This document shows, one piece after another, positions 5,842-43,943 of a stretch of 64,000 nucleotides of DNA (position 1 is its first letter; each line of letters starts with the position of its first letter). Both the position numbers and the translations under genes were made by a program. The notes under the pieces are model-generated. The model did not search any database and had not been told where the DNA came from. It worked only from the letters and a program-made list of their open reading frames with translations. This DNA is from Chryseobacterium gleum (lineage in GTDB: Bacteria > Bacteroidota > Bacteroidia > Flavobacteriales_D > Sanyastnellaceae), in NCBI GenBank assembly GCA_945881835.1, contig CAMCVP010000002.1:1-64000 (forward strand), written 5' to 3'.

Positions 5842-6156
5842 ATGACATTCACAGGAAACGAAGGTGCAGTGATCACACTAGCAGAAGGATCAAAAATGAC
5901 AGCCGCTTACCGCGCTAACATCTCTACTGGAGATACCATTGCGCTAGCAGTAGGAAAGAACTTGGTTAACTCAATTCTCGGACAAACAGGATGCATGGGA
6001 ATTCGTATGTATTTCGCCTTAGACAAAGATGAGAATAAACAACTGGTTTTGGTTGGAGTAGATGCAAACGGAGATGATATGACAGCGGGGGTAATTGTTG
6101 ACAAGGCATATCTTTGCCCACCGACCTGTTCTCAAAAGAACCCCCTAAATTCTTAA
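5842..6156 (+). CDS. 104-aa conserved protein with CPPxC tail, first gene of signalling cassette 1
   Basis: Starts MTFTGNEGA, contains QTGCMGIRMYFALD and VGVDANGDDM, and ends CPPTCSQKNPLNS. It is clearly homologous to the 106-residue product at 37189-37509, which heads the same gene order; the start, the QTGCMGIR and GVDANGDDM blocks and the CPPxC...NPLNS end are nearly identical. There is no signal peptide or membrane helix, so it is probably cytoplasmic. Three cysteines (one central, two in CPPxC) are shared and could bind metal or form a disulphide. I recognise it only as a Bacteroidota hypothetical family. The 7-TM protein starts 11 bp downstream, so it likely shares its messenger with the kinase and regulator. 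It could be an output, a modulator or a sensed protein. Confidence 0.85.
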   Translation: MTFTGNEGAVITLAEGSKMTAAYRANISTGDTIALAVGKNLVNSILGQTGCMGIRMYFALDKDENKQLVLVGVDANGDDMTAGVIVDKAYLCPPTCSQKNPLNS

Positions 6157-6167
6157 AGTTTACCTAA

Positions 6168-6842
6168 ATGAATATTGAGTTTTTTATTTCCCTCATTTCT
6201 GGAATTATTTCAATCTCAATATTTGCTTTTAAGATTTCTAAGCAAAACTATTTTACTTATTTTATTGTAGCATTTGTGATAGTTTCAGTTTCAGTAGATT
6301 CATACAATCTATATTGTTACTTGAACAATAGGAACAATCTTTTTGTGGTAAACATTTACGATTACATTTCAATTTTATTGGAATTATTTTTTCTCATCAC
6401 TGTTACTAATTTAAAAAAGATTTATTGGTTTGTTACAGCTATAGTATTATTTACGTTTTGGTTAATGCATGCTGTTTTCAATTGGCAAAATGGCTTTGAA
6501 GTTTATTCCACCACATTGTCATTTATTATGTCAATGATTGTCTGTGTGTATTCAATTATCGCGACCCTAAACATTTTGTGGTTAGAATCAGAGTATTTCA
6601 ATAGATTCAAGTACCGATTAATTGCGGTACTTGGATTTTTTGTTTTCGAAACTTCGTGTTTAATTCCTATTTCTACAATTAACTTGGAATTGAGTTCCGA
6701 AGAAAAAAGGTACTTATCGGAATTTTACAATCATGTTATTGTCGTTGGAAGCATAGTAAGAAATGTTCTTTTCTCTTTGTATTTCATATTGGATAATAGG
6801 ATTCATAAAAAGGAACGAGTTTCAAATAGTTTAGTAATTTGA
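6168..6842 (+). CDS. Seven-helix membrane protein of signalling cassette 1
   Basis: 224 residues, nearly all hydrophobic, with about seven predicted membrane helices and short loops; the C-terminus is basic (NRIHKKERVSN). No family motif is recognised. Its counterpart in cassette 2 (36527-37189, 220 aa) has the same size, helix number and position between the 104/106-aa protein and the kinase, though sequence conservation looks low. Position suggests a membrane input module for the neighbouring kinase, which itself has only one N-terminal helix. The kinase begins 7 bp after this stop. Confidence 0.8.
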   Translation: MNIEFFISLISGIISISIFAFKISKQNYFTYFIVAFVIVSVSVDSYNLYCYLNNRNNLFVVNIYDYISILLELFFLITVTNLKKIYWFVTAIVLFTFWLMHAVFNWQNGFEVYSTTLSFIMSMIVCVYSIIATLNILWLESEYFNRFKYRLIAVLGFFVFETSCLIPISTINLELSSEEKRYLSEFYNHVIVVGSIVRNVLFSLYFILDNRIHKKERVSNSLVI

Positions 6843-6849
6843 GAATTAA

Positions 6850-7626
6850 TTGAGCAGCACAAGCATTGTAGTTACATATTCTATTATTGCCCTTGGTGTT
6901 TTTACGCTATTTGTTGTGGTGCTAACATTTCTGTTGGTAAGAAAAGTAGCGAAATCGATAAAGGAGAAAGAGCTACACAAGCAAATGATTCGAGAAACCA
7001 TAATTCAAACACAGGAATCCGAGCGAGAAGCACTAGCAGACAATCTTCATGACGATTTCGGACCACAATTAGGTATGCTGTATCGTCATTTACAAAAGGA
7101 AGTCGATAGTAGTTCTTCCATTATGCTCTCAGCTTCGGATAGGGAAAATATATACAAGAAGTTAGATTTATTAATTGCTGATGTTCGGAATTATTCGTCA
7201 CAAATTTTCCCCAAACAATTAGCTGAATTAGGCCTAATCAATGCAATCGAACAAAACCTTATCGAATTAGGATTTAACATTCGAATTAACTTTTTCAATC
7301 GATTGATCTATGATTTGAATTTTGATAAATCCAAACAACTGGCTATCTATAGAATTACCAACGAAATCTTGAATAATATTATTCGGCATGGAAAACCCAC
7401 ATTCATTGAGTGCGAGCTAAACAACGATGAAGATAAATTTCAAGTGGTCTTTACCCACGACGGTGCGCCATTTAGTCAAATAGAATTCTTAGAAACAGCC
7501 CGAAACAATGAAGGTAGGGGTTGCTCTTCCATTTTAAATAGAACCCTTCAATTGGAAGGGACTATAGAATTTTATCGTATCTTAGATCAGTACGCATGCA
7601 CTAAACTTCAACTTCCTTTAAAATGA
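6850..7626 (+). CDS. Sensor histidine kinase, HisKA_3/NarL-type, cassette 1
   Basis: 258 residues from a TTG start placed right after an in-frame TAA; this start keeps the single N-terminal membrane helix (about residues 5-30), whereas the first ATG would delete it. The phosphoacceptor box is ESEREALADNLHDDFGPQLG (histidine in NLHDD), as in two-domain NarX/DesK-like kinases. The ATPase domain has an N-box NEILNNIIRHG and a glycine-rich GRGCSSILNRT segment. No periplasmic sensor domain is present, so input probably comes from the 7-TM neighbour. It should phosphorylate the response regulator encoded next, with which it overlaps (ATGA at 7623-7626). The cassette 2 kinase is a close paralog. Confidence 0.9.
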   Translation: MSSTSIVVTYSIIALGVFTLFVVVLTFLLVRKVAKSIKEKELHKQMIRETIIQTQESEREALADNLHDDFGPQLGMLYRHLQKEVDSSSSIMLSASDRENIYKKLDLLIADVRNYSSQIFPKQLAELGLINAIEQNLIELGFNIRINFFNRLIYDLNFDKSKQLAIYRITNEILNNIIRHGKPTFIECELNNDEDKFQVVFTHDGAPFSQIEFLETARNNEGRGCSSILNRTLQLEGTIEFYRILDQYACTKLQLPLK

Positions 7627-8285
7627 TAGTTCCAATTAAAGTTGCGCTGGTCGATGATCACACCATAACTCGCGAAGGCATAAAGAGAATTTTAAACCAA
7701 GACAGGGCTGAACGCTTTCATGTGGTGGGTGATTTTCCAGACGGACAATCGTTTTTAGATTTTTTGAAAGAAGAAACCTGCGACGTGGTCCTTATGGACA
7801 TAAATATGCCCGGTAAATCTGGAGACAGCACCATTGAAGTAATTAAACAAAAGTACCCCAAAGTTTCGGCGATTGTCCTGAGCATGATTACAAATGATTA
7901 CATGATAGACAGAGCCATATCTGTTGGGGCATTGGGTTACCTGCCCAAAGAAGCCGACTCTGGTCAGATAATAAAGGCTTTGATCAGCGCTCATGAGAAA
8001 AAGATATTCTTCAATTCGCTGGTTACTGCACAGAAGTTAAACTACTTCAAAGAGAAAAAGAGAATGCCCAGTGAACTTTCAATCCAGGAAAAGATTATTA
8101 TTGACTTAATTATTCATGGATTTAGCAACAAAGAAATTTCCGCCAAATTGAATATTGCAAGTGGCACCGTTAAAAAACATCGCGAGAATATTCTAAGAAA
8201 AACCAATTGCAAGCGTTCAGCACATCTCCTCACATATTCACTCGAAATGGGAATTTTTAATTATCAGGGATTGGTGAAATCGTAG
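7623..8285 (+). CDS. LuxR/NarL-type response regulator, cassette 1
   Basis: 220 residues. The receiver domain opens VALVDDHTITREG (acidic pocket DD), has the phosphoacceptor Asp in VVLMDINMPG and the conserved Lys in GYLPKEAD. The C-terminal LuxR-type helix-turn-helix lies in about residues 148-205 (IIHGFSNKEISAKLN, then ASGTVKKHRENILRKT). All receiver residues needed for phosphorylation are present. Its start overlaps the kinase stop. It is paralogous to the regulator at 35109-35762, with very similar receiver and DNA-binding helices, so both could read the same operator. The TACGn-N6-nCGTA dyads near both cassettes are the obvious candidate target. Confidence 0.92.
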   Translation: MIVPIKVALVDDHTITREGIKRILNQDRAERFHVVGDFPDGQSFLDFLKEETCDVVLMDINMPGKSGDSTIEVIKQKYPKVSAIVLSMITNDYMIDRAISVGALGYLPKEADSGQIIKALISAHEKKIFFNSLVTAQKLNYFKEKKRMPSELSIQEKIIIDLIIHGFSNKEISAKLNIASGTVKKHRENILRKTNCKRSAHLLTYSLEMGIFNYQGLVKS

Positions 8286-8590: not shown

Positions 8591-9196
8591 GTGGAAATAT
8601 CAGAAAAACAGCTTATTGCAAGAATAAGAGCGCGTGGTAAAGGTTTTGTATTTAGTGCAAAGCTATTTACCTCGTTAACCGATGATTCTCGAAGTGTACG
8701 TACGGCGTTGACGAGGCTCGTACAAAAAGGTGCTATTCGCAGATTGGCTCATGGTCTTTATGATTTACCTGTTGTACATCCGAAGTTAGGAAAAGTAATG
8801 CCCAGTGTTGAAAGTGTCATAGAAGCCATTAAGACGGCTGAGGCGATCGAGGTTCAGCCAACGGGTGCCTATGCTGCCAATTTATTGGGGCTGTCTACAC
8901 AAATACCTATGCGCATAGAATTGTATACCAACGGGCCAAAGAAGGTTGTGCGATTTGGGAAGCAGGAAATACTTTTGAAGCCAACGACTCCCAAGAACAT
9001 GGTTGGAGCTGGAACTAAAGCCGGATTAATTTTACATGCACTCAGACAAATTGGAAAAGAGAATGTATCGGAAGAGATGAAGATGCATATTAGAAAGCAG
9101 TTAGAAGAAAAAGATTTGAAGCAAATTAAGAAGCAAGCACTATATGCCCCGGCATGGATTGCAAAGATTTTAAGAGAGCTAATCAATGAAGAGTAA
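8591..9196 (+). CDS. AbiEi-family antitoxin (type IV toxin-antitoxin system, DUF6088-like)
   Basis: 201 residues from a GTG start; the next in-frame ATG is far inside the conserved part. The N-terminus is a winged-helix domain (VFSAKLFTSLTDDSRSVRTA then LVQKGAIRRLAHGLYDLP), followed by the C-terminal antitoxin domain with QPTGAYAANLLGLSTQIP. In the AbiE family this protein represses the operon and counteracts the nucleotidyltransferase toxin without a stable complex. The toxin gene starts 11 bp before this stop. Length and order are normal for the family. The phage-defence role is family knowledge, not shown here. Confidence 0.85.
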   Translation: MEISEKQLIARIRARGKGFVFSAKLFTSLTDDSRSVRTALTRLVQKGAIRRLAHGLYDLPVVHPKLGKVMPSVESVIEAIKTAEAIEVQPTGAYAANLLGLSTQIPMRIELYTNGPKKVVRFGKQEILLKPTTPKNMVGAGTKAGLILHALRQIGKENVSEEMKMHIRKQLEEKDLKQIKKQALYAPAWIAKILRELINEE

Positions 9197-10223
9197 CACG
9201 ATGAATGAATTTCTAGAATTAACACCAGAGGATCGTAATCTCTATTGCAGACAGGCATCGGAAAGGTTAGACATTTCTTTGCCAGCTGCCGTCATTGAAA
9301 AAGATTTTTGGGTGTGTTGGACTCTTCAGATACTCAATGAGATTCCAGAATTAAACGGAAGTATAACATTCAAGGGAGGAACTTCATTGTCTAAAGCATG
9401 GGGTTTAATTGAAAGATTCTCGGAAGACATTGATATAGCAATAAGCCGAAAAGTATTCGGGCAGGAACCGCCTTTTGGTCCAGAAGATGCACCAACCAAT
9501 CGTCAGCGAAAAATACGTTTGGAAGAATTAGAAGAAAAAAGCGCTTCGTTCATTCGTGAGGTTATACTGCCTAAACTCGAAAAGAAAATATCGGAACACC
9601 TTACAGAGCCTTTCACACTTAAACCCATTCAAAAGGGAAATGAAGTTAACATTGAATTTGAGTATCCAGGAACATTGAAAAACGAATTGGGCGCATTGTT
9701 GCCGGTTGTATTAATTGAGTTAGTTCCTAGAGCAGATGAAGTTCCTAATGAAGAGCGAGAAATTACCCCGATTATTTATGAGGTGTTTCCAGATATTTTA
9801 GGGAAGGGGTCCTTCACTATTTCTACCCTAGCTCCAGAGCGTACGTTTTTGGAAAAACTACTATTCATTCATGAAACGTTGGAAGGATTTAACAAGGGAA
9901 GTGAGCGGAAGAGCAGACACTATTATGATTTATTCAAGCTTTATCATGCAGGTGTTTTTGAGAACATTAAGACCAATCCTAATTTGCTGAAAATTGTCGT
10001 TGAACACCGTCAAATATTTTTCAGATACAATGCTATGAATTACGGATCAATTTTAACTAATGGTGTTCGAACAATACCAACGGCTGATGAACAAATAGAT
10101 TGGCGCTCTGATTATAGCAGAACTGCAATAATGATTTACAACGGCATTCCATCGTTCGATGAATTGATGTTGTTTGCTGAAAAGTTCGAAGGAGAATTTA
10201 ACGAATGGATTTCGAAGGGGTAA
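9186..10223 (+). CDS. AbiEii-family nucleotidyltransferase toxin
   Basis: 345 residues. The nucleotidyltransferase signature is clear: FKGGTSLSKAWGLI, then RFSEDIDIAI with the paired aspartates, near residues 60-90. A later E(R)TFLEKLLFIH motif and KSRHYYDLFKL match the conserved C-terminal half of AbiEii/AbiGii toxins. Family members transfer nucleotides to tRNA acceptor ends and stop growth when unbalanced. The start could be ATG 9186 or ATG 9201; both overlap or abut the antitoxin gene. The stop is followed 15 bp later by the 237-bp repeat that also follows the toxin triple at 19360-20767. Confidence 0.88.
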   Translation: MKSNTMNEFLELTPEDRNLYCRQASERLDISLPAAVIEKDFWVCWTLQILNEIPELNGSITFKGGTSLSKAWGLIERFSEDIDIAISRKVFGQEPPFGPEDAPTNRQRKIRLEELEEKSASFIREVILPKLEKKISEHLTEPFTLKPIQKGNEVNIEFEYPGTLKNELGALLPVVLIELVPRADEVPNEEREITPIIYEVFPDILGKGSFTISTLAPERTFLEKLLFIHETLEGFNKGSERKSRHYYDLFKLYHAGVFENIKTNPNLLKIVVEHRQIFFRYNAMNYGSILTNGVRTIPTADEQIDWRSDYSRTAIMIYNGIPSFDELMLFAEKFEGEFNEWISKG

Positions 10224-27961: not shown

Positions 27962-28870
27962 TTACTCCACCACCAGCTTCTCACACACCTCTTCTCCATT
28001 TTCAAATGATGCACGAACAGTGTAAATACCCGTAGCAAAATCGAAGACATTCACTTGCATTTGCATTCTACCTATAATTTTTTCGGTGTGCATCAGCTGT
28101 CCGGTTACGTTGAATATTTGAATGGAATGCGGAATGTGAGCGGCCTCGAATTGCAGATTCACTTGTTCACACGCTGGGGATGGATATAGCCGAATGCTCA
28201 AAGTTTCTTGTTCCTCAATTCCGACGTAATTACAACAATCATAAACACCTAATTCGGTGTAGTCTTGATGATAAATCTCAAGTCCATTTTCGTCGTAGAA
28301 GCAAGTTAAAATATTAAGATCCTCATGGTACCATGTTTCCAAACCAAAAACCGTTGCACCAATTCCCTCAATAAAATAAAATTCAACGCCAAAAAAAACA
28401 GGTACGTAAGGTTGAGATTGAGAAGAACCAATTACCAACAAATGATACGTCCTTCTTTGAATATTATCGAGTGTAACAATGGTATCTATATTATTCACCA
28501 AATAATCTCCACCCATATTTGGAAAAGGAAAGTAAATGGTATCACCTTCTTGCATGTCCCAATTCACGTATTCTTCAGAATTCAAATACCAACTATTTCC
28601 TATTTGTGTCAACCATTTATCACCCAACCACATATCCAAGGCTAAATCCATTCCCGGACAGACCGATGGTAATCCAACGAAGTGAAATGAATCAACGCTA
28701 TCATTTAATAATGGTTGAGCATCTGGAAACTCATCCTTCCAAAAACTTCCAAGTGTAACAGTATGGTATACCCATTTACCGTTGTAAGGTAGTGGTAACG
28801 ATGGTTTAAATTGACCAAAGATGGGTAAATAACAAATTAAGACTAACACTTTAATTAAGAAGTATTTCAT
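27962..28870 (-). CDS. Secreted T9SS sorting-domain protein, copy 1 (302 aa)
   Basis: 302 residues: signal peptide (MKYFLIKVLVLICYLPIFG), a ~200-residue beta-rich domain with W/Y-rich strands and an acidic CYDENGLEIYHQDY segment, and a C-terminal sorting domain (LYPSPACEQVNLQFE ... GIYTVRASFENGEEV). It is a paralog of 43056-43943; the last ~70 residues are about three-quarters identical by eye. It starts 11 bp after the 1715-aa gene and so shares its operon. Probably surface-exposed; function unknown. Confidence 0.85.
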   Translation of the reverse strand: MKYFLIKVLVLICYLPIFGQFKPSLPLPYNGKWVYHTVTLGSFWKDEFPDAQPLLNDSVDSFHFVGLPSVCPGMDLALDMWLGDKWLTQIGNSWYLNSEEYVNWDMQEGDTIYFPFPNMGGDYLVNNIDTIVTLDNIQRRTYHLLVIGSSQSQPYVPVFFGVEFYFIEGIGATVFGLETWYHEDLNILTCFYDENGLEIYHQDYTELGVYDCCNYVGIEEQETLSIRLYPSPACEQVNLQFEAAHIPHSIQIFNVTGQLMHTEKIIGRMQMQVNVFDFATGIYTVRASFENGEEVCEKLVVE

Positions 28871-28881
28871 TACAATCTAAT

Positions 28882-31800
28882 TTAATGTTTAACAATAATT
28901 TTCTTGGATTCTGCAATACCACCATTAACGGATAGCTCGACAACATACAGTCCATTTGACCAAGATGTTGCATTTACATATTGCACCCCATTGGACTTGG
29001 AGATATCTATTCGCATTACCAAGCTTCCAGTTTCATTGTAAACATTAAGGTAGGACTGGTTATTTTCAGAAGGCAAAATAAATCCAACTGAAAATTCATC
29101 TTTTACTGGATTCGGAAACACATGCAATAATTGAATCTTTTTTGGCTCTGAATTTTCTGTTTCGCGAGTACTTCGGAGCAAATTTGGATATTGTAATACA
29201 GGCTCTTGTGCTGAATCTCCAAGTAATTCAAGTAATGATTTTGCGTAATCCCCTATATTACCGCCAAGAGCTACATAATTTTGAATTTCTGACTTATAAG
29301 TTGAATCAGCTCGACTAAAACCTCCATTGGAATTAATTTCAAGAATAAGTAAATTCAGTTGGTTTTCATTAATGTCGTAGTAATTTGTCAAGAAATTCGT
29401 GTACTGTGTTTGAGCGGCGACATAGTTATGTTCTGCTAAATAAATATCGTAAAGCATTCTAGATTCCACAAAATCAGAATTGTCGGCTAGTAAGTTTTTG
29501 ACAGGTGTAAAATCACGAAGTAAAGAATCAGCATCCACCGTCACTTCGATTAACTTGGCTAGACCTCTTAATTTATTGGTTGTTGCACTCTTCATTCTGA
29601 ATTCTTGAAGTAATTTGGTATTCTCACCTGTCTGATAGGCACTTACAAGATCAAACATGTACGAGGGCAAAATATCCAAACACTTCATGATTATTGGATC
29701 TAAAGGTGAACAAGCAATTAAAATTTCAGTTAAATGCCATGGATTTAATGTTGAGGACCGGTCTATAAGAGTATCGAGTATGACGTCGCTCAAGTATGGG
29801 GATATTGGTATTAAAGCATTTCGAATTTCTGAAGATGAAATATTCAAATTGGAAACAAAAGATAGCAGTTCTTCAGGATACCCTCCATCCATCAATTGAA
29901 GATACTGCACCTTTTCAACGTCAATAATTAATTGATTAATATTCACTGTCTGGACTAACCCTAAACTATTTAAATTTAAATCGTGGTCAATCGGACAATT
30001 GGTCCACCTATCAACAAAGCTAACGGTACTTTGAATAGTACTGATGTTGTTTGAAATATACAAAGGTTTGAGAGTATTAGGCGGGGAAGGGTGTCTGAAA
30101 TATTTAATTGGGGTGCAGCTTGAACAATTGTAAAAGTCAGACTCCAGAGAATAGGTAGCATCTTGACCAAAAAAATTATCAGCTCCATTATTAGGATCAT
30201 TCAAAGAAATACCCACAGGAACACCCTGTGATTTCGCGATTTCACTCATATTGCCAAGTGCAGGAGCTAAAACTGCAATATTAAATTTCGATTTGTAGAA
30301 GGCATCACATAAAATTTGTAAACCACCATTTATGCCCACGTTATCTGCTTGATCACCTTCTGCAGCAATTCCGACATCTAACATATTAAAATCATTTAAG
30401 TATATTTCATTGGCGACAGGCGCACTGCGTTTAACATATATCCCATATGAACCAACCAAAGCGTCTTCATTTCCCTGAAAATAATTACGTTCTACTTTAT
30501 ACTGATTGCAACGATCGAGATACAATCCTACCCTCTGGTAATAAGAATCATGAGGATAAATAAACTTATTGCGATAGATCAATGTACTTGATTGGTTTTC
30601 TATTGATATGCCAAACTTGTTTTCAATGAAAACAGAATTTTTCACTTGAGCATTGAAAAGACTTCCATCGCCAAGCATTCGTATCCCATATTTAAAATTC
30701 TTAAACGTACTTGGATCAGCTAATTCACTAACGGATGTATACAATGTACTTGCAGTAATATCATCAGGGTTAGGCTCAGTAGTCTCATTTGACCATGAGC
30801 TTTTGATTATTGGACTAGATAACATAGAAAGAATGCCGCATCCTGCTGACAAAGCCTCATAATTTGAGGTTGGTAAAATTTCAAAATGACAATCAATGAA
30901 TTCAACACCGGATATTTCGTAAAGTGAAACACGGGAGCTCAATGATGCTTCTGTAGGCAAATATTCGTCAACCAAAAAACGACAATTGATAAACTGTGAT
31001 AGACTGGGATGAGAGGTGTAGGACATAAATTCGATATCTTTTCTATTATTTAAAAATAATGAGTTGGTCGCCTTTACTATCCCACCCGAGGAGGAAAAAT
31101 TATAGACCCAAGGATCCATTGATATCATTCCGCAAATGCGAATTCCGCAACGGGCATTTGAAATTACAGCGTTATTGAAGAGTTCCACAGTGCCTTGTAC
31201 AATCGATGATTGAATTTCAGTTGACTGTCCTTGAACCTCAACGCCCTGCCAGAATGAATTTTCACAAGCGTTCGTTAGGGTTCCTCCGTTTACTACTAAT
31301 TTACCTCCAGGCCTCACTATCAATTTGGCATTTTCAACGAATGAGAGTGTTGAAGTCACGGTAAGAGTAGCACCTGGATCGACAATTAATGTTTGTGTTG
31401 CAACGGAAGGTATGTTTACTAAATTGCTAGAACCGCTTATGTGCTGCTCACCAAAGGCTTCGCAACTCATAGGCGATTTCCAATAACCTCTACCGAAGGT
31501 GGAAAGGAATATTTCATTATGAAACGGATCAAATTCAATATCAGAGACCACGCAAATCGGTAAATTGTTAGTGACATTGGCCCATTGTGGACTGCTTGCG
31601 TTCATATCACAGTAAAATACCCCGATGTCAGTTGCGGCAATCAAATCCTTACCTGTGGTTGGTGCAAATTGCATATCGTTCACGGGAAGACGAGGAAAGC
31701 CCTGTGATCTGTTAATTACTTGCATTGAATTCAATATGCCAAATATTGGTAGACTTAAATCCAACTGAATTTCTACAACTCTTAAATGCTCTTGTGTTGA

Positions 31801-34029
31801 ATTTTCTGACCCATTGAACCCAATATAGATATGTCCTGGGTTTTGAGGGTCGATTTCAATTGAATTAATACCATAATAGAGCATATATCCGTCAATAACA
31901 GGATTTAAATTAATAGAAGTTGTCAAATCTATCCATGTTGCGCCGCCGTCTTTTGTTATAAAAAGTTTTTTAATGAAGTTTCCATTCCAACAGGCACTTT
32001 CATAAGCCACTACCATGACTTGAGGATTGGATTTTGATACTTTTAAAGCTCGGATGCGGGTGCCCGGATTCGCGGTGACTTGTAGTTGACTAAAACTAGG
32101 TGTAGGTGTGAAATCGACCTTTCCGATACTGCTTGTACCGCCTATAAAGGCGAAATCAGGGTTCTGCCAATTTCTATCAAAGGGTGCATTCCATCGTGAT
32201 TGAAAACTACTTAAACCATTAACAGAAATTTGAGTTGAAAAAACATTAGTATTTATTAAATTCAATGGAAACACGCCACTTCCCGTATAGGAATTTAATG
32301 GACCCTGGTATTTCGTAAAGTAATAATCAGTGGGATTAGAATGCTTCAATATCCCGTCATATCTATCACCAGGTAAATCGACAGAGAACTCATTGTTTTT
32401 TGAAAATATTTCCCAATTATCTTGAGCACCACCTGTAAAGAAATTATAATTTTCAGCATAAACATCCATTCCATAAATTTGCGTTACGTCCAAACCCTGT
32501 CCATTAAAATTGTAAGGAGTAAAGTTATTTCCTGCGCGAACGAGTTTTGTTATGCCGCCATCTTCACAAACGAAGACGTGTTCATTACTATTTTGACCAA
32601 CTTGATACACTGAAATATCACGAATATCATCGTGAATTTGAAAAGTTGTATTGTAGAAACTGCCGTATGATAAATCGTCGATTTTTAAAATCTTCATTGT
32701 TCTACCACCATAATACAATATATTATCATCTGAATTAGAGCATGTAAATTCCTCTTTCCATTCATTTAATATAGGGTTTGAAATATTACTAGACACAAGT
32801 TGCCAACCTATCTCATCTTTAAATAAAAAAGCAGTGGAATTAAATTTTGCCCCTAGTGCAAAGAGTTCGTGGGTACCTAAATTGGAAAAAGAAGTATTAA
32901 TAATGCGCGGCAGATTAGATAAAACTGAAGGTGTGTTACTCGTTAATTGCGATTGAAATATCCATTGTACATTATTTGGATTAAGGTTGCTTGCATTTGT
33001 GCTTCGCCAAACTTCGGCAGGGTGATAGAGATACTGATTGTAGCATCCATTGGATGGATCAAATGAATATGCAGATGCACCATTCGAGCAAATTATTACA
33101 TCATTCCAATTAACGGGGTTTACATCTAGATCTATCAGTACCTTTTTTTTATAGCAGCATGATTGAGTTATATGCGCGTTTGCCGCCAATTGAGGAGTCA
33201 AAGAAATGGCTTGATCGGTTTCAATGCCTACTGGTGCAACTCCGAAAATCACCTCATAAGTTTGCCAGCCATTATCTGTGCGTAGCACTTGAAAATTTGT
33301 GATAGCATACTGTTTCAAGGGACTTGTTTGATTTACAACAATTTTCCAAACATTGTCATGCCAAGTGTAGCCATCAAAATTCACCCCCGTTGGATTCCAG
33401 GTTGCACCTGCATCATGTGTTACATAAATACCTAGGCCATAGTACTCGAGTCCATGAATATTCTCTAAACTAGTACTTAGTCCAATGGAAGCGTATAGGG
33501 TGTTCTCATCTAAAGGGTCCATTACTATTTCTTGGCAGCCTACTGCCATAGGAATTTGCCCATCAGAAATGTTCGTCCAATGCGCACCGCTGTCTGTCGT
33601 TTTCCAAATTCCGCTAGTAGGTGCCCCCGCGTAGCATACAACACCCGGATTAACTTGTGATGTTGCAAAACACTCTATCCTGCCTTGAAAATGAGTGTCT
33701 TTCACTAAGCTCGTTGGTCCAAGAAAATTCCAATTGAAATTCGTATTCATGCTGTGAAAGGCCGGGATAGCCTCACTTTCCTGCTTAAGCACTTTAAAAT
33801 ACTGTAATGCATCCAATCCGTGATTTGAATGCATTCTGTCGAATAAATATTCTTCAGAATTTGCTGCCTGACTTAATTCGCTTTCACCGATAGCACCCTC
33901 AGGTTCCTGTGAAAAATAAGTTTCTAGATTTGAACGATAGTTTAAATAGTAATTGGTGAAATCAAGTTCTTGGGCACTTGAAGTAATTAGCACCGAACAT
34001 GCTAGCATTGTCAAAAAATGTTTAGTCAT
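28882..34029 (-). CDS. Giant secreted propeller/beta-helix protein, copy 1 (1715 aa)
   Basis: After a signal peptide (MTKHFLTMLACSVLITSSAQ) the first ~850 residues form a sortilin/BNR-type beta-propeller with repeated SGIWKTTDSGAHWTNI, TKDGGATWIDL and STFGRGYWKSP elements. A right-handed beta-helix follows (about 870-1260: TLIVDPGATLTVTSTLSF, then PGGKLVVNGGTLTN), then a helical region (about 1350-1620; ALIPISPYLSDVILDTLIDR, PWHLTEILIACSPL) and a T9SS sorting domain (VFPNPVKDEFSVGF ... GLYVVELSVNGG). It is paralogous over its full length to the 1730-aa protein at 37851-43043, and in its second half to the 1210-aa metallopeptidase. Probably a surface-attached adhesin or glycan/protein binder. 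Confidence 0.85.
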   Translation of the reverse strand: MTKHFLTMLACSVLITSSAQELDFTNYYLNYRSNLETYFSQEPEGAIGESELSQAANSEEYLFDRMHSNHGLDALQYFKVLKQESEAIPAFHSMNTNFNWNFLGPTSLVKDTHFQGRIECFATSQVNPGVVCYAGAPTSGIWKTTDSGAHWTNISDGQIPMAVGCQEIVMDPLDENTLYASIGLSTSLENIHGLEYYGLGIYVTHDAGATWNPTGVNFDGYTWHDNVWKIVVNQTSPLKQYAITNFQVLRTDNGWQTYEVIFGVAPVGIETDQAISLTPQLAANAHITQSCCYKKKVLIDLDVNPVNWNDVIICSNGASAYSFDPSNGCYNQYLYHPAEVWRSTNASNLNPNNVQWIFQSQLTSNTPSVLSNLPRIINTSFSNLGTHELFALGAKFNSTAFLFKDEIGWQLVSSNISNPILNEWKEEFTCSNSDDNILYYGGRTMKILKIDDLSYGSFYNTTFQIHDDIRDISVYQVGQNSNEHVFVCEDGGITKLVRAGNNFTPYNFNGQGLDVTQIYGMDVYAENYNFFTGGAQDNWEIFSKNNEFSVDLPGDRYDGILKHSNPTDYYFTKYQGPLNSYTGSGVFPLNLINTNVFSTQISVNGLSSFQSRWNAPFDRNWQNPDFAFIGGTSSIGKVDFTPTPSFSQLQVTANPGTRIRALKVSKSNPQVMVVAYESACWNGNFIKKLFITKDGGATWIDLTTSINLNPVIDGYMLYYGINSIEIDPQNPGHIYIGFNGSENSTQEHLRVVEIQLDLSLPIFGILNSMQVINRSQGFPRLPVNDMQFAPTTGKDLIAATDIGVFYCDMNASSPQWANVTNNLPICVVSDIEFDPFHNEIFLSTFGRGYWKSPMSCEAFGEQHISGSSNLVNIPSVATQTLIVDPGATLTVTSTLSFVENAKLIVRPGGKLVVNGGTLTNACENSFWQGVEVQGQSTEIQSSIVQGTVELFNNAVISNARCGIRICGMISMDPWVYNFSSSGGIVKATNSLFLNNRKDIEFMSYTSHPSLSQFINCRFLVDEYLPTEASLSSRVSLYEISGVEFIDCHFEILPTSNYEALSAGCGILSMLSSPIIKSSWSNETTEPNPDDITASTLYTSVSELADPSTFKNFKYGIRMLGDGSLFNAQVKNSVFIENKFGISIENQSSTLIYRNKFIYPHDSYYQRVGLYLDRCNQYKVERNYFQGNEDALVGSYGIYVKRSAPVANEIYLNDFNMLDVGIAAEGDQADNVGINGGLQILCDAFYKSKFNIAVLAPALGNMSEIAKSQGVPVGISLNDPNNGADNFFGQDATYSLESDFYNCSSCTPIKYFRHPSPPNTLKPLYISNNISTIQSTVSFVDRWTNCPIDHDLNLNSLGLVQTVNINQLIIDVEKVQYLQLMDGGYPEELLSFVSNLNISSSEIRNALIPISPYLSDVILDTLIDRSSTLNPWHLTEILIACSPLDPIIMKCLDILPSYMFDLVSAYQTGENTKLLQEFRMKSATTNKLRGLAKLIEVTVDADSLLRDFTPVKNLLADNSDFVESRMLYDIYLAEHNYVAAQTQYTNFLTNYYDINENQLNLLILEINSNGGFSRADSTYKSEIQNYVALGGNIGDYAKSLLELLGDSAQEPVLQYPNLLRSTRETENSEPKKIQLLHVFPNPVKDEFSVGFILPSENNQSYLNVYNETGSLVMRIDISKSNGVQYVNATSWSNGLYVVELSVNGGIAESKKIIVKH

Positions 34030-34996: not shown

Positions 34997-35114
34997 ACAA
35001 TACGCACTTCCTCGTACTTTTCGAATGATTCGCTCAAAGAAAAAAGTGCCGAAGCACTTTAAAAATCGCGTGTAGTAAAAAGAAAAATCTGAACTTGAAA
35101 ACTGAAACTCACCG
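34997..35114 (+). repeat. 117-bp repeat, copy B, with dyad TACGC-N6-TCGTA
   Basis: Second copy of 18894-19010. It covers the 3' flank and last codons of the cassette 2 regulator gene. The dyad is at 35001-35016, about 222 bp upstream of 34473-34778 (minus strand). A hairpin AACTCACC/GGTGAGTT (35106-35125) at the end of the regulator gene may act as a weak terminator. Confidence 0.75.
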
Positions 35115-35762
35115 CGGGGTGAGTTCAAGAATTTGATGCTGATACGCGAAGGTGACGAGCTCGGCAATGTTAGAACATTGCGTTTTCTTCATAATGTTCT
35201 CTCTGTGCTTACTTACTGTGGCCGGACTAAGGTTTATTTTTTCAGCGATTTCAGCTGTATTTAAACCTGATGCGACAAGACTTGTAATAAACTGCTCACG
35301 AAGCGTAAGCCCAGAGGGTTCTTTTCTTCCGTTTTTAATGAGTTTATATTTTTCAGCCGTTAGTAGCCTATTGAAAAACATTTTTTTATCGCGCGCAGAC
35401 AAAACGGCATTCTTAATTTCTTCTGATCCCGATTCTTTTGGCAAGTAGGCATAGACACCAAGCTTCACCATAAATTCCATCATGTAGTTTCGCGTATTCA
35501 TGGTTAAAATCACTACAGAAACATCCGGAAATTTTTTATGAATCAATTCAACCGTAGACTCACCCCCGCGAATGGGCATGTGAATGTCCATGACCACGAC
35601 AGCGCACGATTTTTTTTTCAGGTAGTCTAAAAAATCAGATCCATTTCCGAAGTCACCAATCAGTTCGAATCGTTTTTTCGGATCTTCGACAAAAAGTTTG
35701 CGCAATCCTTCGCGAAGAACAGTGTGGTCGTCTACAATGGCAACTTCAATGGGTTTCGACAT
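35109..35762 (-). CDS. LuxR/NarL-type response regulator, cassette 2
   Basis: 217 residues. Receiver: VAIVDDHTVLREGLRKLF, phosphoacceptor Asp in VVVMDIHMPIRGG, switch and Lys regions in VVILTMNTRN and YAYLPKESG. The C-terminal LuxR helix-turn-helix carries LVASGLNTAEIAEKINLSPA and TVSKHRENIMKKTQC. All phosphorylation residues are intact. It overlaps the kinase gene by 17 bp. It is a paralog of the regulator at 7623-8285. Likely targets are the dyads in the 37.5-37.85 kb gap and before the secreted-protein operons (inferred). Confidence 0.92.
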   Translation of the reverse strand: MSKPIEVAIVDDHTVLREGLRKLFVEDPKKRFELIGDFGNGSDFLDYLKKKSCAVVVMDIHMPIRGGESTVELIHKKFPDVSVVILTMNTRNYMMEFMVKLGVYAYLPKESGSEEIKNAVLSARDKKMFFNRLLTAEKYKLIKNGRKEPSGLTLREQFITSLVASGLNTAEIAEKINLSPATVSKHRENIMKKTQCSNIAELVTFAYQHQILELTPR

Positions 35763-36543
35763 GGCGCGGTAGGGGTATTATAAATTCTATATAAGTTAAT
35801 TCATTGAATACTCTCTCAATGGTAACAGTGCCCCCAAGCATGAGCGTTCGGTTCAGTATGGAAGAACAGCCTTTGCCTGCACCATTTTGCGCTTCTTCCA
35901 TAAATTCGGCCTGACTAAAATGTAGTCCGTTGTGTGTAAGACCAATGCTTAATTTATGTTTTACAATTTCAATGATACATTCTAACGCGGTCGGACGTGA
36001 ATGTTTCGTGATGTTAGAAACCGCTTCATTTACGGTGCGGTATAGGGCCAGCTCATCGATAAGGCTGAAGTGAAGTTTTTGTTGAACGTCGCATCGAAAT
36101 TCTATGATTTTATTTTCCGATTCCAAATCGAAGAAATTATTCTCGAGTGATTGGATTAAACCTAATTTTTTGAATTGGGTAGGAAAGATTTCACTGGAGT
36201 ATTTCCGAATGTCTTCAGCGAGCTCTTCAATTTTGAGTGTTATTTTTTCCAATTGATTTCGTGAGAAGGAATAAGACTCCTCGCGCTTTTCTGCAGTCTC
36301 CAGTTGTTTCAACAAAATTCCCAATTGCGGACCGAAATCGTCATGTAGATTGTCAGAAAGCACCTCGCGCTCTTTTTCTTGCGATTCAACTATGGCGCGT
36401 TGCATAGTTGCTTGAAATTCGTTTTGCATTTTAATTTTGGAAATATACAATTTCGCGAGTATCCAAATAACAGCAACTAGAAGGATGCTTATCAAAAATG
36501 AAAAAATAGAAGCAAAGACGTAAATTTCATTTACCTGTATCAT
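35746..36543 (-). CDS. Sensor histidine kinase, HisKA_3/NarL-type, cassette 2
   Basis: About 265 residues from ATG 36543 (MIQVNEIYVF), which puts the membrane helix at the N-terminus as in the paralog and gives a 17-bp overlap with the 7-TM gene; an upstream in-frame ATG at 36609 would add 22 residues and overlap far more. Phosphoacceptor box ESQEKEREVLSDNLHDDFGP, N-box NEAVSNITKHSRP, glycine-rich GKGCSSILNRT. The kinase is close to the cassette 1 kinase through the whole catalytic part. It has no extracellular sensor domain. Confidence 0.9.
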   Translation of the reverse strand: MIQVNEIYVFASIFSFLISILLVAVIWILAKLYISKIKMQNEFQATMQRAIVESQEKEREVLSDNLHDDFGPQLGILLKQLETAEKREESYSFSRNQLEKITLKIEELAEDIRKYSSEIFPTQFKKLGLIQSLENNFFDLESENKIIEFRCDVQQKLHFSLIDELALYRTVNEAVSNITKHSRPTALECIIEIVKHKLSIGLTHNGLHFSQAEFMEEAQNGAGKGCSSILNRTLMLGGTVTIERVFNELTYIEFIIPLPRHVETH

Positions 36544-37189
36544 AATCCATTTGTTTTGCTTGGAAAAAGAAGAAGGCGAATAGAGAGTCGCGAATGAAAT
36601 TGCTGCCAAGTGTCACTCCGAGTCGGATTTTATGAAAGCACTCGGGAAACTCTATCGAATCATCAATGTTAGTGATCATCTGTGGTACCAACATAGATGT
36701 TGTATAAAAAAATATCGCAATTATTGGCCATGCATTAATGTTTATTTTCGGTGAGTTATAAGGAGACTTGTAAATTAAAAAGAAAAGAGTATGCAAGGCT
36801 AGAAAGCAAATAAACAGACCTGACAGTAGTTTAATATAGTCATTTTGTAATTGAAAATGACTTTTAAAGCAGTAAACAAATTGAAGAATTGAAATAAACA
36901 AGCTAATTCCTCTCAGAAACAGCTTAGATTTTTGAGAGATTGGGTAGACAGAAGTCAGAATGAATGTACAAATTGTTCGTTCAATAATTTGGTAGATATT
37001 TGATACAGGAGCTGTGGGCAATCTCGAATTAGCTAGGGAGAGTCCAATGAAATCTCCAAGAAATGATGAAATAACAATTGCAGCAATTAATAAACAAACT
37101 TTATTGAATTTTAAAATTCTTAGATAAAAAAGAAAGATTGAAAAAGGAAACAAGCGGTAAGCTACAACTGAATAAACGACAACCTGCAT
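36527..37189 (-). CDS. Seven-helix membrane protein, cassette 2
   Basis: 220 residues with about seven hydrophobic helices, matching the protein at 6168-6842 in length and position but with weaker sequence similarity. Its start overlaps the stop of the 106-aa gene at TAATG (37187-37191), and its end overlaps the kinase. Strict overlaps across cassette 2 point to fixed subunit ratios. Likely the membrane sensor or ligand channel of the cassette. Confidence 0.8.
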   Translation of the reverse strand: MQVVVYSVVAYRLFPFSIFLFYLRILKFNKVCLLIAAIVISSFLGDFIGLSLANSRLPTAPVSNIYQIIERTICTFILTSVYPISQKSKLFLRGISLFISILQFVYCFKSHFQLQNDYIKLLSGLFICFLALHTLFFLIYKSPYNSPKININAWPIIAIFFYTTSMLVPQMITNIDDSIEFPECFHKIRLGVTLGSNFIRDSLFAFFFFQAKQMDYDTGK

Positions 37190-37509
37190 TAATAATTAGA
37201 GTTTAAGGGATTATGTTTGCCGCAAATTGGCGGACAATTCGCCGTTTCGTCAACGATAACCCCTTGGTACATATCGTCTCCATTAGCATCTACTCCCACA
37301 GCAACCATTTGATTTTCCCCTTTGTTGTTGATGGCATAGTACAATCGAATCCCCATGCAACCAGTTTGATTTAATATTGCGTTCACTAAATTCTTCCCAA
37401 TGGCGTGCCCAATGGTTTCACCGATGTTAATGGTTTCACGATAATTCGCGGTCATTTCAGATCCTTCGGCAAGTGTAATGATAGCTCCTTCGTTTCCAGT
37501 GAATGTCAT
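37189..37509 (-). CDS. 106-aa conserved protein with CPPxC tail, first gene of cassette 2
   Basis: Starts MTFTGNEGAIITLAEGSEMT, contains QTGCMGIRLYYAI and VGVDANGDDMYQGVIVD, ends CPPICGKHNPLNSNY. It is the paralog of 5842-6156 and far better conserved between cassettes than the 7-TM protein, which suggests it, not the membrane part, defines the system. It shares the three cysteines. The gene is headed by a TATTTTTG box and a dyad about 162 bp upstream. Confidence 0.85.
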   Translation of the reverse strand: MTFTGNEGAIITLAEGSEMTANYRETINIGETIGHAIGKNLVNAILNQTGCMGIRLYYAINNKGENQMVAVGVDANGDDMYQGVIVDETANCPPICGKHNPLNSNY

Positions 37510-37850: not shown

Positions 37851-40800
37851 ATGAAACTTTTTTTATCCAATCTAATTGCCATTTTATTTGTTGCCACAAC
37901 GAACGGACAACAATTGGATTTCACCAATTATTATTTGAACTATGGTAAGCACATTCACGATTTTTCTTCTTCCGAGCAAGAAGGCGAGACTGGTGAAAGT
38001 GAAAGTGGACAGGCGGGGAAATCCTACGAGTACATGTTTGACCGCATGCACACGAATCACGGTTTAGATCCTGTGCAATATTTCAAAGTGTTGAAAGAAG
38101 AAAGTGAAAGCATTCACCCTTACCGTTCGCTAAACACCAATTTCGATTGGGAATTTTTAGGCCCAACGAATTTAACTAGTGGCTATACGCATCACCAAGG
38201 CCGGATTGATTGTTTTGCTACGACTTCTTCTAACCCTGGGGTAATTTGCTATGCAGGTTCTCCTACTTCGGGTATATGGAGAACAACAGATTCGGGAGCA
38301 AATTGGAATAACGTTACAGATGGACAAATCCCTATGGCGGTAGGTTGTCAAGACATAGTTGTAGATCCTACCAATGACAACATCATTTATGCATCGATAG
38401 GTTTGAACGGTGGCATGGAAAATATTCACGACATTGCTTATTACGGATTAGGTATTTATAAAAGTACTGATGGTGGGAGTTCTTGGCAACCCACTGGCTT
38501 AAATTTTGGGACCCAGGTTTGGAACGACAACATATGGAAAATTGAAATAAACCCCAACAACTCGAATCAACAATATGCTATTTCGAATTTTCAGGTTTTC
38601 CGAACAAATGATGCTTGGAATACATACGAAATAATTTTTGGGGTGAATGCCCTTTCCACTATCGACGCTTTAGACCAGTCTGTGAACACCTCTACCCAAA
38701 GTGCGCTCACTTCCCATTTAACCCAATCGTGTGCCTACAAGAAAAAGATTTTGGTAGACTTAGATGTGAACTTAAACAATTGGAACGAAGTGATTATTTG
38801 TTCCGCGGGTCAGCAATCTTACTCTTTACCCAGCAATAATGGTTTGAATCTTTATAAATATCATCCGGCCGAAGTTTGGCACAGTTCTAATGCACATGCG
38901 TCCAATTCCAACACGGTCAATTGGGATTTTGTCTCGCAACTTGCAGACTCAAGTCCTTCGAACAGTTCAGTGAGCGAAATTGTGAATGTTAGTTTTTCAA
39001 TATTTAACGAAGGAGTCTTTTATTCAGTGGAAAAAAAATTCGATAGTACACTAACTAAAATCCACAAAAAAGAAGGAAACACCTGGAATTTACTTTCGAA
39101 CTTGATTTCTGGAGCAGATGTTAGTCAATGGAAATTAGAATTTGAATGTTCGCCCAACATTGGAAATTATATTTACTTAGGTGGTACCTATTTAAAAAGA
39201 TATAACATTCAAACTAATCAGTATGCAGGTTTTCCTGCCACCGCTGGTTATCAGCTTCATGTGGATATAAGAAACATCCAAGTCTTACCAAATGAAGACC
39301 TTTCGGAGGACTTAGTTTTCGCATGTGAAGATGGTGGAGTCTCTAAAATAATCAGTTCAAGCCAAAACATTGCTGTTTATAATTTTAATGGCGCTGGTTT
39401 AGATATTACACAAATCTATGGTTTTGACATTTATCAGCCTAACATACCTTTTCTTACAGGGGGTACTCAAGACAATAACGTGGTTTACCTTAAGAGCAAT
39501 AACTTTCATAACGCTCTTACAGGGGACAGATACGACGGTGTTTTGCACTATACAATTAATCCGGATTTTTTATTTACGAAAGATCAAGGAAGTAACAGCC
39601 AATACAGTTTGGATGTTAATCAAGTGGACCTGAATATCTCCAATTCAATTGCCTATGCAAGTAATCCTGCTTTAATGGACACATTCAAAGCCCGCTGGAA
39701 CGCACCCTTCGATCGCAATTGGCAAGACCCCAATTTTGCTTTTGTGGGTGGTGAAGGAAAAGTGGGAAAACTACAGTTTACGCCTATCCCATTATTTTCG
39801 GAATTGTTAGTTGATTCGTTAGCCTCTTCACCCATTCGGGCCTTAAAGGTGTCGAAATCGAATCCGAACGTCATGGTTGTGGCCAACGAAGGGGCATATT
39901 GGAACAGTCCCTCAGAGAAAAAATTATATATTACGCGCAACGGCGGTTTAACATGGCTAGACATTACTGCAGCATTTAACAGTTCATCAGCAGTTGATTC
40001 ACTCTTGCAATACTACGGCATTAACGCTTTAGAAATTGACCCTCAAAATCCCGGTAAAATATACATTGGACTCAACGGCACCGAGGACACTTCGGTGAAT
40101 ACAATCAAACGATTTTTCGAGTTGAATTTAAATCTTAGTTTGAATGATCAGGACATGATAGACAACGCGATTGTAATCAATTTATCATCGGGTTTGCCGC
40201 GTTTACCGATTAACGATTTGCAATTTGCCCCTACTTTGGGAAAAGATCTATTGGCCGCAACTGATATAGGCTTATTCTATTGTGACCTCACAGGTTCAAC
40301 CCCTGTTTGGGTGAATGTTAATCCAGGCCTTCCAACATGCGTAATCACCGACATTGAATTCGACGTTTTTCACAACGAAATTTATATTTCAACTTTCGGT
40401 CGAGGATACTGGAAATCTGCCATGTCTTGCGAACCAATGGTCGATTTACATATTACAGAAGATTCACAAATTTCGATTCCAACATTGGCCAACCATTCTA
40501 TTGTTGTGGAGCCCGGAGTTGTTTTTACTGTAACCTCTACGCTTTCCTTTGTTGAAAATGCGAGGTTAATCGTAGAGCCCGGAGGGAAATTGGTTGTGAA
40601 CGGCGGAACATTAACCAACGGTTGTTCCAACGCTTTTTGGGAAGGTGTAGAAGTGCGTGGGCACTCCAATTTAAGCCAAACACCAGCGAACCAAGGAGTA
40701 GTGGAACTGAAGAACAATGCGCGAATCAATCACGCGAAATGTGGCATTCGAACCGCTGAAGTACTAATTGGTGAAGATTCTTGGGAATACAATTGGAATT

Positions 40801-43043: not shown

Positions 43044-43055
43044 TAATTTAGCGAA

Positions 43056-43943
43056 ATGAGAGTATACTTGATGATTTTTTTTCTGGGCTGTTACCAGATA
43101 ATGAACGCCCAAACAACACCAGCTTTGCCGCTACCAACTGATGGAAGCGTTTGGGTTGCGTATAATTTATATTCACCTTGGAGCACAAATTGGGCATACA
43201 AACTGAATCAAACGATTGAGCCAGATGGCGATTTGTCATGGGAAAATTCAGTTTGTCAGATTCCCAGTTGTGATAATGCTTTGACTTATTACTCATCGAA
43301 CTTTCTATTTTATGAAAGCGATAATAAATGGTATCGGGATGGTTTTTTATTTTTCGATTGGGATTTAATGGTAGGAGATTCTATTTTTTTTGCTTGGTGG
43401 GATGATTATATGTCGGTTGCAGCAATTGATACTGTTGAATACTCCGATTTTGTTCCAAGAAGGTTATATCATATGGCTTATAACGGAAATCCTATGCTTT
43501 GGCACGGTGAAGAAATGAATTACATTGAAGGAATTGGCTCAAGTATTTGGGGGCTTGAAATGGCGCATTCAGAGAATAAGCCTCTTTTTCAATGTTTTTA
43601 TGATAAAAACGGATTACTTATTTATCACAACGACTGGTCTAGTGAATTCTCAGGGGTGACGAATAGTTGCTGCCCAATTATTTCTGTTGAGGAAACAACC
43701 TCTAAATCCTTCAAACTTTTCCCCAGCCCCGCCAACAATCAAACCTCATTACAATTCGAATCCACTCACATTCCACAAACCATTCAAATCTTGAACGCAA
43801 CCGGACAGCTCATGCACACCGAAAAAGTTTTAGGTAGAATGCAAATGCAAATGAATGTCTCCGAATACGCGAAAGGCATTTATACGGTACGAGCAAGATT
43901 CGAGAATGGAGAAGAGGTGAGTGAGAAGCTGGTGGTTGAATGA
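43056..43943 (+). CDS. Secreted T9SS sorting-domain protein, copy 2 (295 aa)
   Basis: 295 residues, 12 bp after the 1730-aa gene. Signal peptide (MRVYLMIFFLGCYQIMNAQ), beta-rich domain with CFYDKNGLLIYHNDW, sorting domain (LFPSPANNQTSLQFE ... GIYTVRARFENGEEV). It is the paralog of 27962-28870, in the same order behind a giant paralog. Conserved pairing implies a joint function at the surface. Confidence 0.85.
   Translation: MRVYLMIFFLGCYQIMNAQTTPALPLPTDGSVWVAYNLYSPWSTNWAYKLNQTIEPDGDLSWENSVCQIPSCDNALTYYSSNFLFYESDNKWYRDGFLFFDWDLMVGDSIFFAWWDDYMSVAAIDTVEYSDFVPRRLYHMAYNGNPMLWHGEEMNYIEGIGSSIWGLEMAHSENKPLFQCFYDKNGLLIYHNDWSSEFSGVTNSCCPIISVEETTSKSFKLFPSPANNQTSLQFESTHIPQTIQILNATGQLMHTEKVLGRMQMQMNVSEYAKGIYTVRARFENGEEVSEKLVVE

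Follow-up and report, generated by a model that had tools for sequence, protein, structure and literature searches.

What is the role of a small protein and of a membrane protein with seven helices in front of a histidine kinase that has no sensor domain of its own? The question is raised by a stretch of 64,000 nucleotides (here called the window) from an assembly named Chryseobacterium gleum (GCA_945881835.1, contig CAMCVP010000002.1), which carries two copies of a four-gene cassette. Each copy encodes, in the same order, a small protein (A), a seven-transmembrane (7TM) protein (B), a histidine kinase (HK) and a LuxR-type response regulator (RR). A sequence-only reading of the window had taken this cassette for a two-component unit whose 7TM protein supplies the input. 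Having followed it up, we lean, with a little more confidence than doubt, towards the view that A and B are co-adapted to each other as an exchangeable recognition module, which would drive the sensor-less HK and its LuxR-type RR.

Cassette layout and linkage of A with B

Copy 1 lies on the plus strand. A (5842-6156) has 104 residues, comprising a core (residues 1-85) and a variable, Cys-bracketed C-terminal tail (residues 86-104). It is followed by the seven-helix membrane protein B (224 residues, 6168-6842), by HK (258 residues, TTG start, 6850-7626), which has one transmembrane (TM) helix and no sensor domain, and by RR (220 residues, 7623-8285), a receiver joined to a LuxR/GerE helix-turn-helix (HTH) domain. 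The gaps A-B, B-HK and HK-RR are 11, 7 and -4 nt. In copy 2, all four genes lie on the minus strand and neighbouring genes overlap: A (106 residues, 37189-37509), the seven-helix membrane protein B (220 residues, 36527-37189), HK (35746-36609 when read from the earliest TTG; the 265-residue orthologue in locus L016 suggests that the true start is likely 36543) and RR (217 residues, 35109-35762). Both cassettes, with their shared gene order and their overlaps or tiny gaps, are present as first described, and so is the small protein of about 105 residues, with the motifs QTGCMGIR and CPPxC...NPLNS in both copies.

Between the copies, A is 67% identical, B 27% (E 1e-4), HK 40% and RR 44%. The earlier ranking of the members, with A conserved best and B least, holds for this comparison, but between sister species HK and RR are the best conserved, with B again the least. 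Conservation of A is also a property of its core and not of the whole protein, as the C-terminal tail varies strongly. In the window's own genome (2.53 Mb, 99.3% complete), a scan for A at E<=0.01 found only two places and the B profile at E<=1e-5 only two B genes, all in the window, although very divergent copies could escape.

In both copies, RR matches the Pfam families Response_reg (2.7e-23 and 1.6e-18) and GerE (7.8e-13 and 2.8e-14). The window kinases score below the Pfam gathering cut-offs, with 21-22 against 26.4 bits for HATPase_c and, in copy 2 only, 20.4 against 24 for HisKA_3. Their matches to the UhpB and MctS models (E 2e-15 to 1.5e-21; 3e-16 and 2.2e-15 for the UhpB model) are likewise below the model cut-offs. 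As for the description of these proteins as one-helix HisKA_3 kinases, the single TM helix was seen in copy 1, and the HisKA_3 match is restricted to copy 2 at a sub-threshold score. Related kinases in L133, L138 and L102 pass the gathering scores for both HisKA_3 and HATPase. The claimed lack of a sensor domain is correct for both window kinases but does not extend to the whole family, in which the kinase behind A-B may be HisKA_3, PAS-HisKA_3, or PAS-HisKA with or without a receiver. In the Pontibacter loci L081, L076, L082, L084 and L105, RR is a receiver of about 140 residues apparently lacking an HTH (L081 was scanned, the rest judged by length), so the output there must differ. In L088, a ceramidase-like gene (PF04734, 8030-9373) rather than a kinase lies behind A-B, and an HK-RR pair is found upstream instead.

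The linkage of A with B was checked in three overlapping samples. For the named records, 80 of 209 relatives were kept, giving 81 A genes, and most of these records are metagenome-assembled genomes (MAGs). In the phylum sample, a strict A was present in 25 of 395 genomes, and all matches outside the named set gave 29 regions with 31 A genes. In the order sample, strict A gave 117 matches in 86 of 399 genomes; 80 of the 117 regions were used, many of them overlapping the named records. B lies directly downstream of 79 of the 81 A genes in the named records, 30 of the 31 in the phylum sample and all 80 in the order sample, where one B is only a 98-residue fragment. The misses are close to contig ends, 8 and 212 nt away in the named records and 52 nt away in the phylum sample. 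The B profile behind these counts was retrained on the same loci, so that the B calls lean on the neighbourhood; helix counts from hydropathy agree with them. The A-B gap is within 20 nt for 72 of 79 genes in the named records and 16 of 30 in the phylum sample. Both HK and RR are found behind A-B in 67 of 81 and 24 of 31 cases, respectively, and behind all eight A genes of the nearest relatives, which repeat named records. In the order sample, HK follows in 74 of 80 and RR in 69 of 80, some of the misses being at contig ends. Loci L015-L021, which repeat named records (e.g., L027), were left out of the pair counts. Tabulated in this way, A homologues do not usually lie away from 7TM, HK and RR genes, and B is always next where the contig continues. 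The four-gene cassette is a unit with one qualification: A-B is obligatory, but HK-RR is only usual, since some loci have a different kinase or none that was found.

This pairing bears on the possibility that A is an output or feedback protein, which by chance stands first in an autoregulated operon, as CpxP is a feedback-type protein for CpxAR. The first operon position would suit such a role, and the variable localisation of A described below would be easier to understand. However, A is strictly paired with B even where the kinase and regulator differ or are not found, and it is co-inherited with B, not with RR. We regard a feedback role as quite improbable.

A and B are also duplicated as a pair: two A-B pairs precede one kinase in L018/L030 and in L133. 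Additional B genes accompany a single A in L141, L142 and L065. The L018/L030 locus (G035:C3) has the tandem order A-B-A-B, with an apparent third, truncated A fragment before the kinase (L018, about 9593-9790), and is possibly a cassette array producing new A-B alleles. No fusion of A with B or HK was found among 981 open reading frames with profile matches; the same set contains a single A-A fusion (250 residues, L138:7381-8133), which precedes B and a PAS-HisKA_3 kinase. The MAGs of L026 (CANMVX010000129.1), L029 and L048 have cassettes near the window's (A 88% in L026) or belong by kinship to the same genus or order, and their titles (Haliscomenobacteraceae, Chryseobacterium gleum) or binning may be doubtful. 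Loci L092 and L102 come from MAGs titled Calditrichota and Marinimicrobia.

B has a wider distribution than strict A, with profile matches in 82 of the 395 phylum genomes. Among the matches listed without a strict A nearby, 40 B regions, mostly high-scoring, were picked by hand. A small same-strand gene (98-310 residues) lies directly upstream of B in 37 of the 40, with a gap of -107 to +116 nt, and HK is next in 38; the B genes of L175, L178 and L193 have no A upstream. Compared with the A profile, 16 of the 37 upstream genes match at E<1e-3, 4 more at <0.05 and 17 do not; for most of these 17, the relation to A consists of position and short motifs, in some with profile comparison in addition. 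Profile-profile comparison linked strict A both to part of the wider upstream set (99.1%) and to stand-alone proteins of about 200 residues with signal-like N-termini (97.3%); the linked part of the upstream set was in turn connected to a lipoprotein-rich group (98.1%). Strict A and the lipoprotein-rich group reached only 60.8% directly, and the negative control, A against B, 0.06%. The stand-alone proteins have an A-like domain (C.GIR.Y ... CPxxCG) and were found at L022:7656-8243, L023:4551-5168, L024:7969-8556 and L025:8900-9520; no B or kinase directly adjoins them in the stretches read.

Divergence of B and the tail of A between close relatives

Comparison of copy 2 with its orthologue in the sister species G006 revealed a sharp contrast within the cassette. 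B is 48% identical at the amino acid level, with a synonymous divergence (dS) of 2.25 and a proportion of synonymous differences (pS) of 0.71, and A is 82% identical (dS 1.31), whereas HK and RR are 96.6% and 96.8% identical (dS 0.21 and pS 0.18 each). Four other genes shared by the window and G006 have a dS of 0.02-0.16; it is also raised in two type IX secretion system (T9SS) genes adjoining copy 2 (0.69 and 1.34). Along the DNA, sliding identity amounts to 88-98% over the upstream 600 nt, declines across A to 48-70% within B and recovers to 84-98% for HK and RR. The same pattern was observed in L052/L069 (B 26%, HK 99%, RR 98%; DNA identity down to about 50% over B), L046/L048 (B 38%), L045/L047 (B 47%) and L035/L039 (B 28%), the exchange in the last pair taking in the first ~45 residues of HK. 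In the clearest pairs, B with 26-48% identity stands beside HK-RR with 97-99%, and silent sites approach saturation in B and in some or all of A, but not in HK-RR. The B type can also cross backgrounds, as L052 and L054 share it (94%) despite more diverged HK and RR (pS 0.39 and 0.34), while L052 and L069 have different B types despite pS values of 0.07 and 0.06 for HK and RR.

The cassettes collected numbered 179, of which 154 were unique. These gave 24 pairs from different loci with a close background (mean HK/RR pS <0.5), falling into 15 clusters, and B is <75% identical in 15 of the 24. Among 11 independent swapped lineages, 9 have pS(B) of at least 0.5 with pS(HK) and pS(RR) <0.4, window copy 2 included. 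When RR identity of at least 90% and HK identity of at least 85% were required, 11 of 26 pairs had B <60%; 2 of the 11 are A-B pairs of one operon sharing HK and RR. Because silent divergence cannot come from relaxed constraint, we infer that the input part, i.e., B with part or all of A, has been exchanged as a block between close relatives. Such exchange between conserved HK-RR pairs backs the earlier proposal that the 7TM protein supplies the input, as far as comparison of sequences can do so.

The apparent swaps might instead be artefacts of chimeric metagenome assemblies, of paralogue comparison, or of relaxed constraint on a fast-evolving membrane protein. Most named records are MAGs, B generally evolves fast, and in L052/L073 and L035/L039 the DNA upstream cannot be aligned. 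However, saturation is confined to B and part or all of A, with HK-RR 81-100% identical per 90-nt sliding window, and the upstream DNA is also 81-100% identical on this scale between the window and L028, in L052/L069 and in L046/L048. Relaxed constraint cannot raise dS, nine separate lineages show the swap, and L052/L054 have a common B type despite greater HK-RR divergence than in L052/L069. An artefact appears to us very improbable.

Within A, the differences pile up at residues 81-104, which hold 64 of the 138 counted in eleven pairs (not all independent, one being a same-B control). Conservation is lower in the tail than in the core in 10 of 11 swapped lineages, compared with 1 of 6 unswapped ones (Fisher p=0.005), although tail pS values are taken from 20 codons and are noisy, some exceeding 1. 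The Spearman correlation of B identity is 0.83 with the tail, 0.60 with the core and 0.09 with HK, the pairs again not all being independent. In 12 pairs with B identity of at least 75%, the last 18 residues of A are identical in 6 and differ at 1-3 positions in the other 6. Tandem A genes within L030 show 93-100% DNA identity in codons 16-90, 62% in codons 91-105 and 38% in the first 15 codons. Family-wide, A columns 88, 90, 95, 98 and 99 have an entropy of 3.1-3.8 bits, and C92, P93, C96, L102 and N103 are nearly invariant (0.1-0.4 bits). These comparisons indicate that the tail is inherited together with B.

The same results could mean that A itself is the signal. Its C-terminal tail, free or on a released or exported protein, would then be a self-made ligand of B, and the alleles would mark communication or kin groups, as in ComX/ComP or AgrD/AgrC. 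Highly variable tail columns set between nearly invariant Cys, Pro, Leu and Asn residues, the joint swapping of tail and receptor, the identical or near-identical tails beside similar B proteins and the tandem A genes of L030 all speak for this possibility. So does a parallel in ComQXPA, whose small protein is variable, as is the TM half of ComP, with the kinase part conserved and ComA the least variable (PMC4008528). However, a signal peptide is lacking in 126 of 146 A proteins, and those that are exported appear to be tethered; the whole protein, tail included, is confidently folded with a conserved core, unlike short pheromone precursors; and the cassette has no exporter or modifying enzyme. 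We consider A unlikely to be the signal, though the case deserves to be kept in view. A broader proposal, similarly doubtful in our judgement, is that of a phylum-wide self-recognition family (the phylum being Bacteroidota, judging from named relatives), with the tail of A as the cognate ligand of a GPCR-fold B and the two exchanged as one block.

Predicted structure, topology and export

The AlphaFold2 model of A is an alpha/beta fold with a well-ordered tail (pLDDT 94.7, pTM 0.82). No recognisable fold was found in the PDB, where the best Foldseek match has an E of 0.41 and the best VIA match a Z of 3.5 over 51 residues (CopG), which does not prove that the fold is new; weak rows for PAS domains in this search were taken as chance. 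The best match in a viral structure library has an E of 0.032. Against PDB sequences, the A profile gives a best E of 0.029 and the B profile nothing at E<=1. Neither A nor B matches any Pfam or NCBIfam family above the cut-off; DUF4730 scores 17.7 against a gathering score of 27 bits, and 1 of 76 family members matches it at E<=0.01. The PADLOC anti-phage defence models gave no match to A, B or HK at E<=0.01 and weak matches only to RR.

Of 76 strict A proteins, 75, 74 and 70 conserve Cys51, Cys92 and Cys96, respectively, and the three residues are kept in four secreted relatives. This conservation would suit an environmental sensor, in which A detects metal or redox state through the three cysteines and reports to B/HK while the swapping of B adapts the system to other ligands and is unrelated to A. 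However, 12 of 107 strict pairs lack the two tail cysteines, as judged by a loose pattern, and the variability of the tail tracks B. A sensor of this kind seems improbable to us.

The AlphaFold2 model of B has seven helices (pLDDT 90.3, pTM 0.86). Its best PDB matches are G-protein-coupled receptors (GPCRs) and microbial rhodopsins, with a Foldseek probability of 1.00 but a best E of 1.2e-2. VIA aligned it with 5-HT2A at a Z of 14.3 (root-mean-square deviation 4.4, 213 residues) and with sensory rhodopsin II (2ksy) at a Z of 12.8. In the model, B has a GPCR-like arrangement of helices; this concerns the arrangement only, and homology to GPCRs or rhodopsins is not claimed. Loop charges predict an N-out/C-in orientation for B, copy 1 included, alike in the groups with unexported A (127) and exported A (18), and the idea that A changes the orientation of B was rejected on this ground. 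A rhodopsin function was also rejected, as no retinal-binding Lys is conserved in helix 7: only 48 of 145 B proteins have a Lys at positions 180-200, and the single helix 7 Lys of B copy 1 is at the very start of the helix, outside this range. The most conserved B columns include N56 and N57 (outer loop), Y64 and E68 (outer helix 3), 151-152 and Y160 (helix 6); 151-152 are Phe-Trp in most B proteins but not in window copy 1. These columns recur in all three A classes, and no clear difference in conservation was detected between the outer and inner halves (mean entropy 3.07 and 2.99).

No signal peptide was seen in A copy 1. Simple rules found no signal sequence in the 126 A proteins mentioned above and flagged 20 of the 146 as exported, leaving 18 (with a signal anchor or lipobox) after L063 and L166 were judged false by eye. 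In the B-picked sample, 14 of 37 upstream proteins were flagged as exported, 13 after removal of a false call, and 23 had no export signal.

Several of these findings weigh against A-B as a recognition module. The export of A varies while B keeps one topology, and one contact geometry therefore cannot hold for all; either A acts on different faces of B depending on the lineage, or unexported A leaves the cell by some other route, and no one explanation fits every case. The structural likeness of B must be read against unrelated helical bundles, which reach a VIA Z of 13-14 by arrangement alone, near the 14.3 of B. The pairs from which the swapped lineages were counted had been pre-selected by RR identity of at least 80%, and in uniformly diverged close pairs (e.g., L067/L071 and L139/L140) B and HK do not contrast. 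As the tail is encoded within 60 nt of B, it could simply be carried along in the recombination tract. The core of A changed too in L033/L223, L070/L262 and L274/L280, and in the second of these pairs the tail is at least as well conserved as the core; core columns V10 and K18, at 3.4 bits, are as variable as those of the tail, and the mean entropies of core and tail are 1.58 and 1.88. In the named-record and phylum samples, moreover, four loci carry another kinase type (L092, L136, L142 and L148), no kinase was recognised behind A-B for seven A genes with room left (L065, L079, L086, L088, L091, L096 and L154), and L061 has only a 91-residue kinase fragment there.

Nevertheless, we favour the recognition module, and it would work as follows. 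B would be an N-out seven-helix receptor in the inner membrane, in contact with A, a small folded partner whose conserved core may be generic and whose tail (xx-CPxxC-xxx-N-x-LNS at the very end) may carry the specificity of pairing with B. The A-B pair would recognise a ligand, and the signal would run from B to the single TM helix of HK through contact between the two proteins. Phosphotransfer from HK to RR would then control transcription of a small regulon, which for copy 2 possibly includes the flanking surface proteins. By recombination, lineages would swap the whole of B with the tail of A, and sometimes all of A, for very divergent alleles. Since the module is separable from the kinase, such swaps would alter recognition and keep the output.

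Known systems, neighbouring genes and meaning

The closest likeness in organisation is to ComQXPA, a quorum-sensing system of Bacillus whose ComA is a LuxR-type regulator. ComQXPA is polymorphic, with specificity types within a species (PMC4008528, PMC4408185). Like it, the cassette consists of four genes in an operon, with a HisKA_3-type kinase and a response regulator in the last two positions, and it combines a polymorphic input with a conserved kinase and regulator. However, no gene for a ComQ isoprenyl transferase lies beside copy 1 (a 396-residue protein upstream, DUF6088/AbiEii downstream) or copy 2 (T9SS proteins). The window A proteins contain no Trp, in contrast to the C-terminal Trp of ComX (PMC4008528). 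A is moreover a folded protein of 104 residues, A and B match no Pfam family, and receptor and kinase are separate genes. By analogy, the cassette may work like ComX and the N-terminal half of ComP driving the C-terminal half of ComP and ComA, built from unrelated parts; it is not a member of ComQXPA.

Other systems share parts of this organisation. In Agr (AgrB-AgrD-AgrC-AgrA), genes for a small protein and a membrane protein likewise lie beside those for a kinase and a regulator, but A and B have no AgrB-type Pfam match and the RR of the cassette is LuxR-type. In UhpABC, a separate membrane receptor, the transporter-type UhpC, feeds a HisKA_3 kinase and a LuxR-type regulator. The cassette resembles it in its separate receptor gene and in the sub-threshold UhpB match of the window kinases, and differs in that B is a seven-helix protein, not transporter-type, and a fourth gene, A, is present. 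LiaFSR and VraTSR offer a further comparison, through gene order and the class of kinase and regulator; Lia systems are not known to have a protein like A. In LiaFSR, an accessory protein is found beside the kinase and regulator (PMC3543457), and the cassette resembles LiaFSR/VraTSR in this respect. B differs in that it has seven helices and matches no family of Pfam or NCBIfam above the cut-off, LiaF itself not having been compared. With the sensory rhodopsin II-HtrII pair and GPCRs, B shares the seven-helix bundle, N-out by loop charges, but not a conserved helix 7 Lys or any sequence match. No description of this four-gene cassette was found in the titles, opening parts of abstracts and open-licence texts that were searched.

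On either side of copy 2 lies a pair of T9SS-exported proteins, the two pairs being paralogous and arranged as mirror images (27962-34029 and 37851-43943); they consist of proteins of 1715/1730 residues with a Sortilin-like part and of 302/295 residues. The 1730-residue protein is encoded on the plus strand (37851-43043), divergently from copy 2, and has a Por_Secre_tail and a sub-threshold Sortilin-Vps10 match. In G006, the right-hand pair is also found next to the orthologous cassette and is mosaic, which makes it a second polymorphic locus: the 1730-residue protein is 53-99% identical along its length, and the 295-residue protein has 64% identity and a dS of 1.34. Large proteins partly related to these (23-29% identity) are found near A in L029, L035, L049 and L073. 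From their position, the flanking T9SS proteins are candidate targets or partners of copy 2. Directly downstream of copy 1 lies a toxin-antitoxin-type pair, DUF6088 (AbiEi-like) and AbiEii (8591-10223). In G006, a divergent DUF6088/AbiEii pair (31-33% identity) is encoded on the opposite strand (L016:14646-16269), some 4 kb downstream of the cassette orthologous to copy 2.

This analysis defines two protein families outside Pfam and NCBIfam, namely B and A, the latter not seen without B where there was room for it. If the tail of A is the ligand, cell-cell signalling in these bacteria would be open to direct test, and the cassette would represent a pherotype-like system; for this phylum, the titles and abstract openings searched showed no such peptide system. 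Polymorphism of an input usually marks the recognition of things that differ between individuals, such as partners, kin, rivals, phages or ligands. Under the recognition module that we favour, the cassettes would provide a natural set of swappable receptor alleles placed before a constant output.

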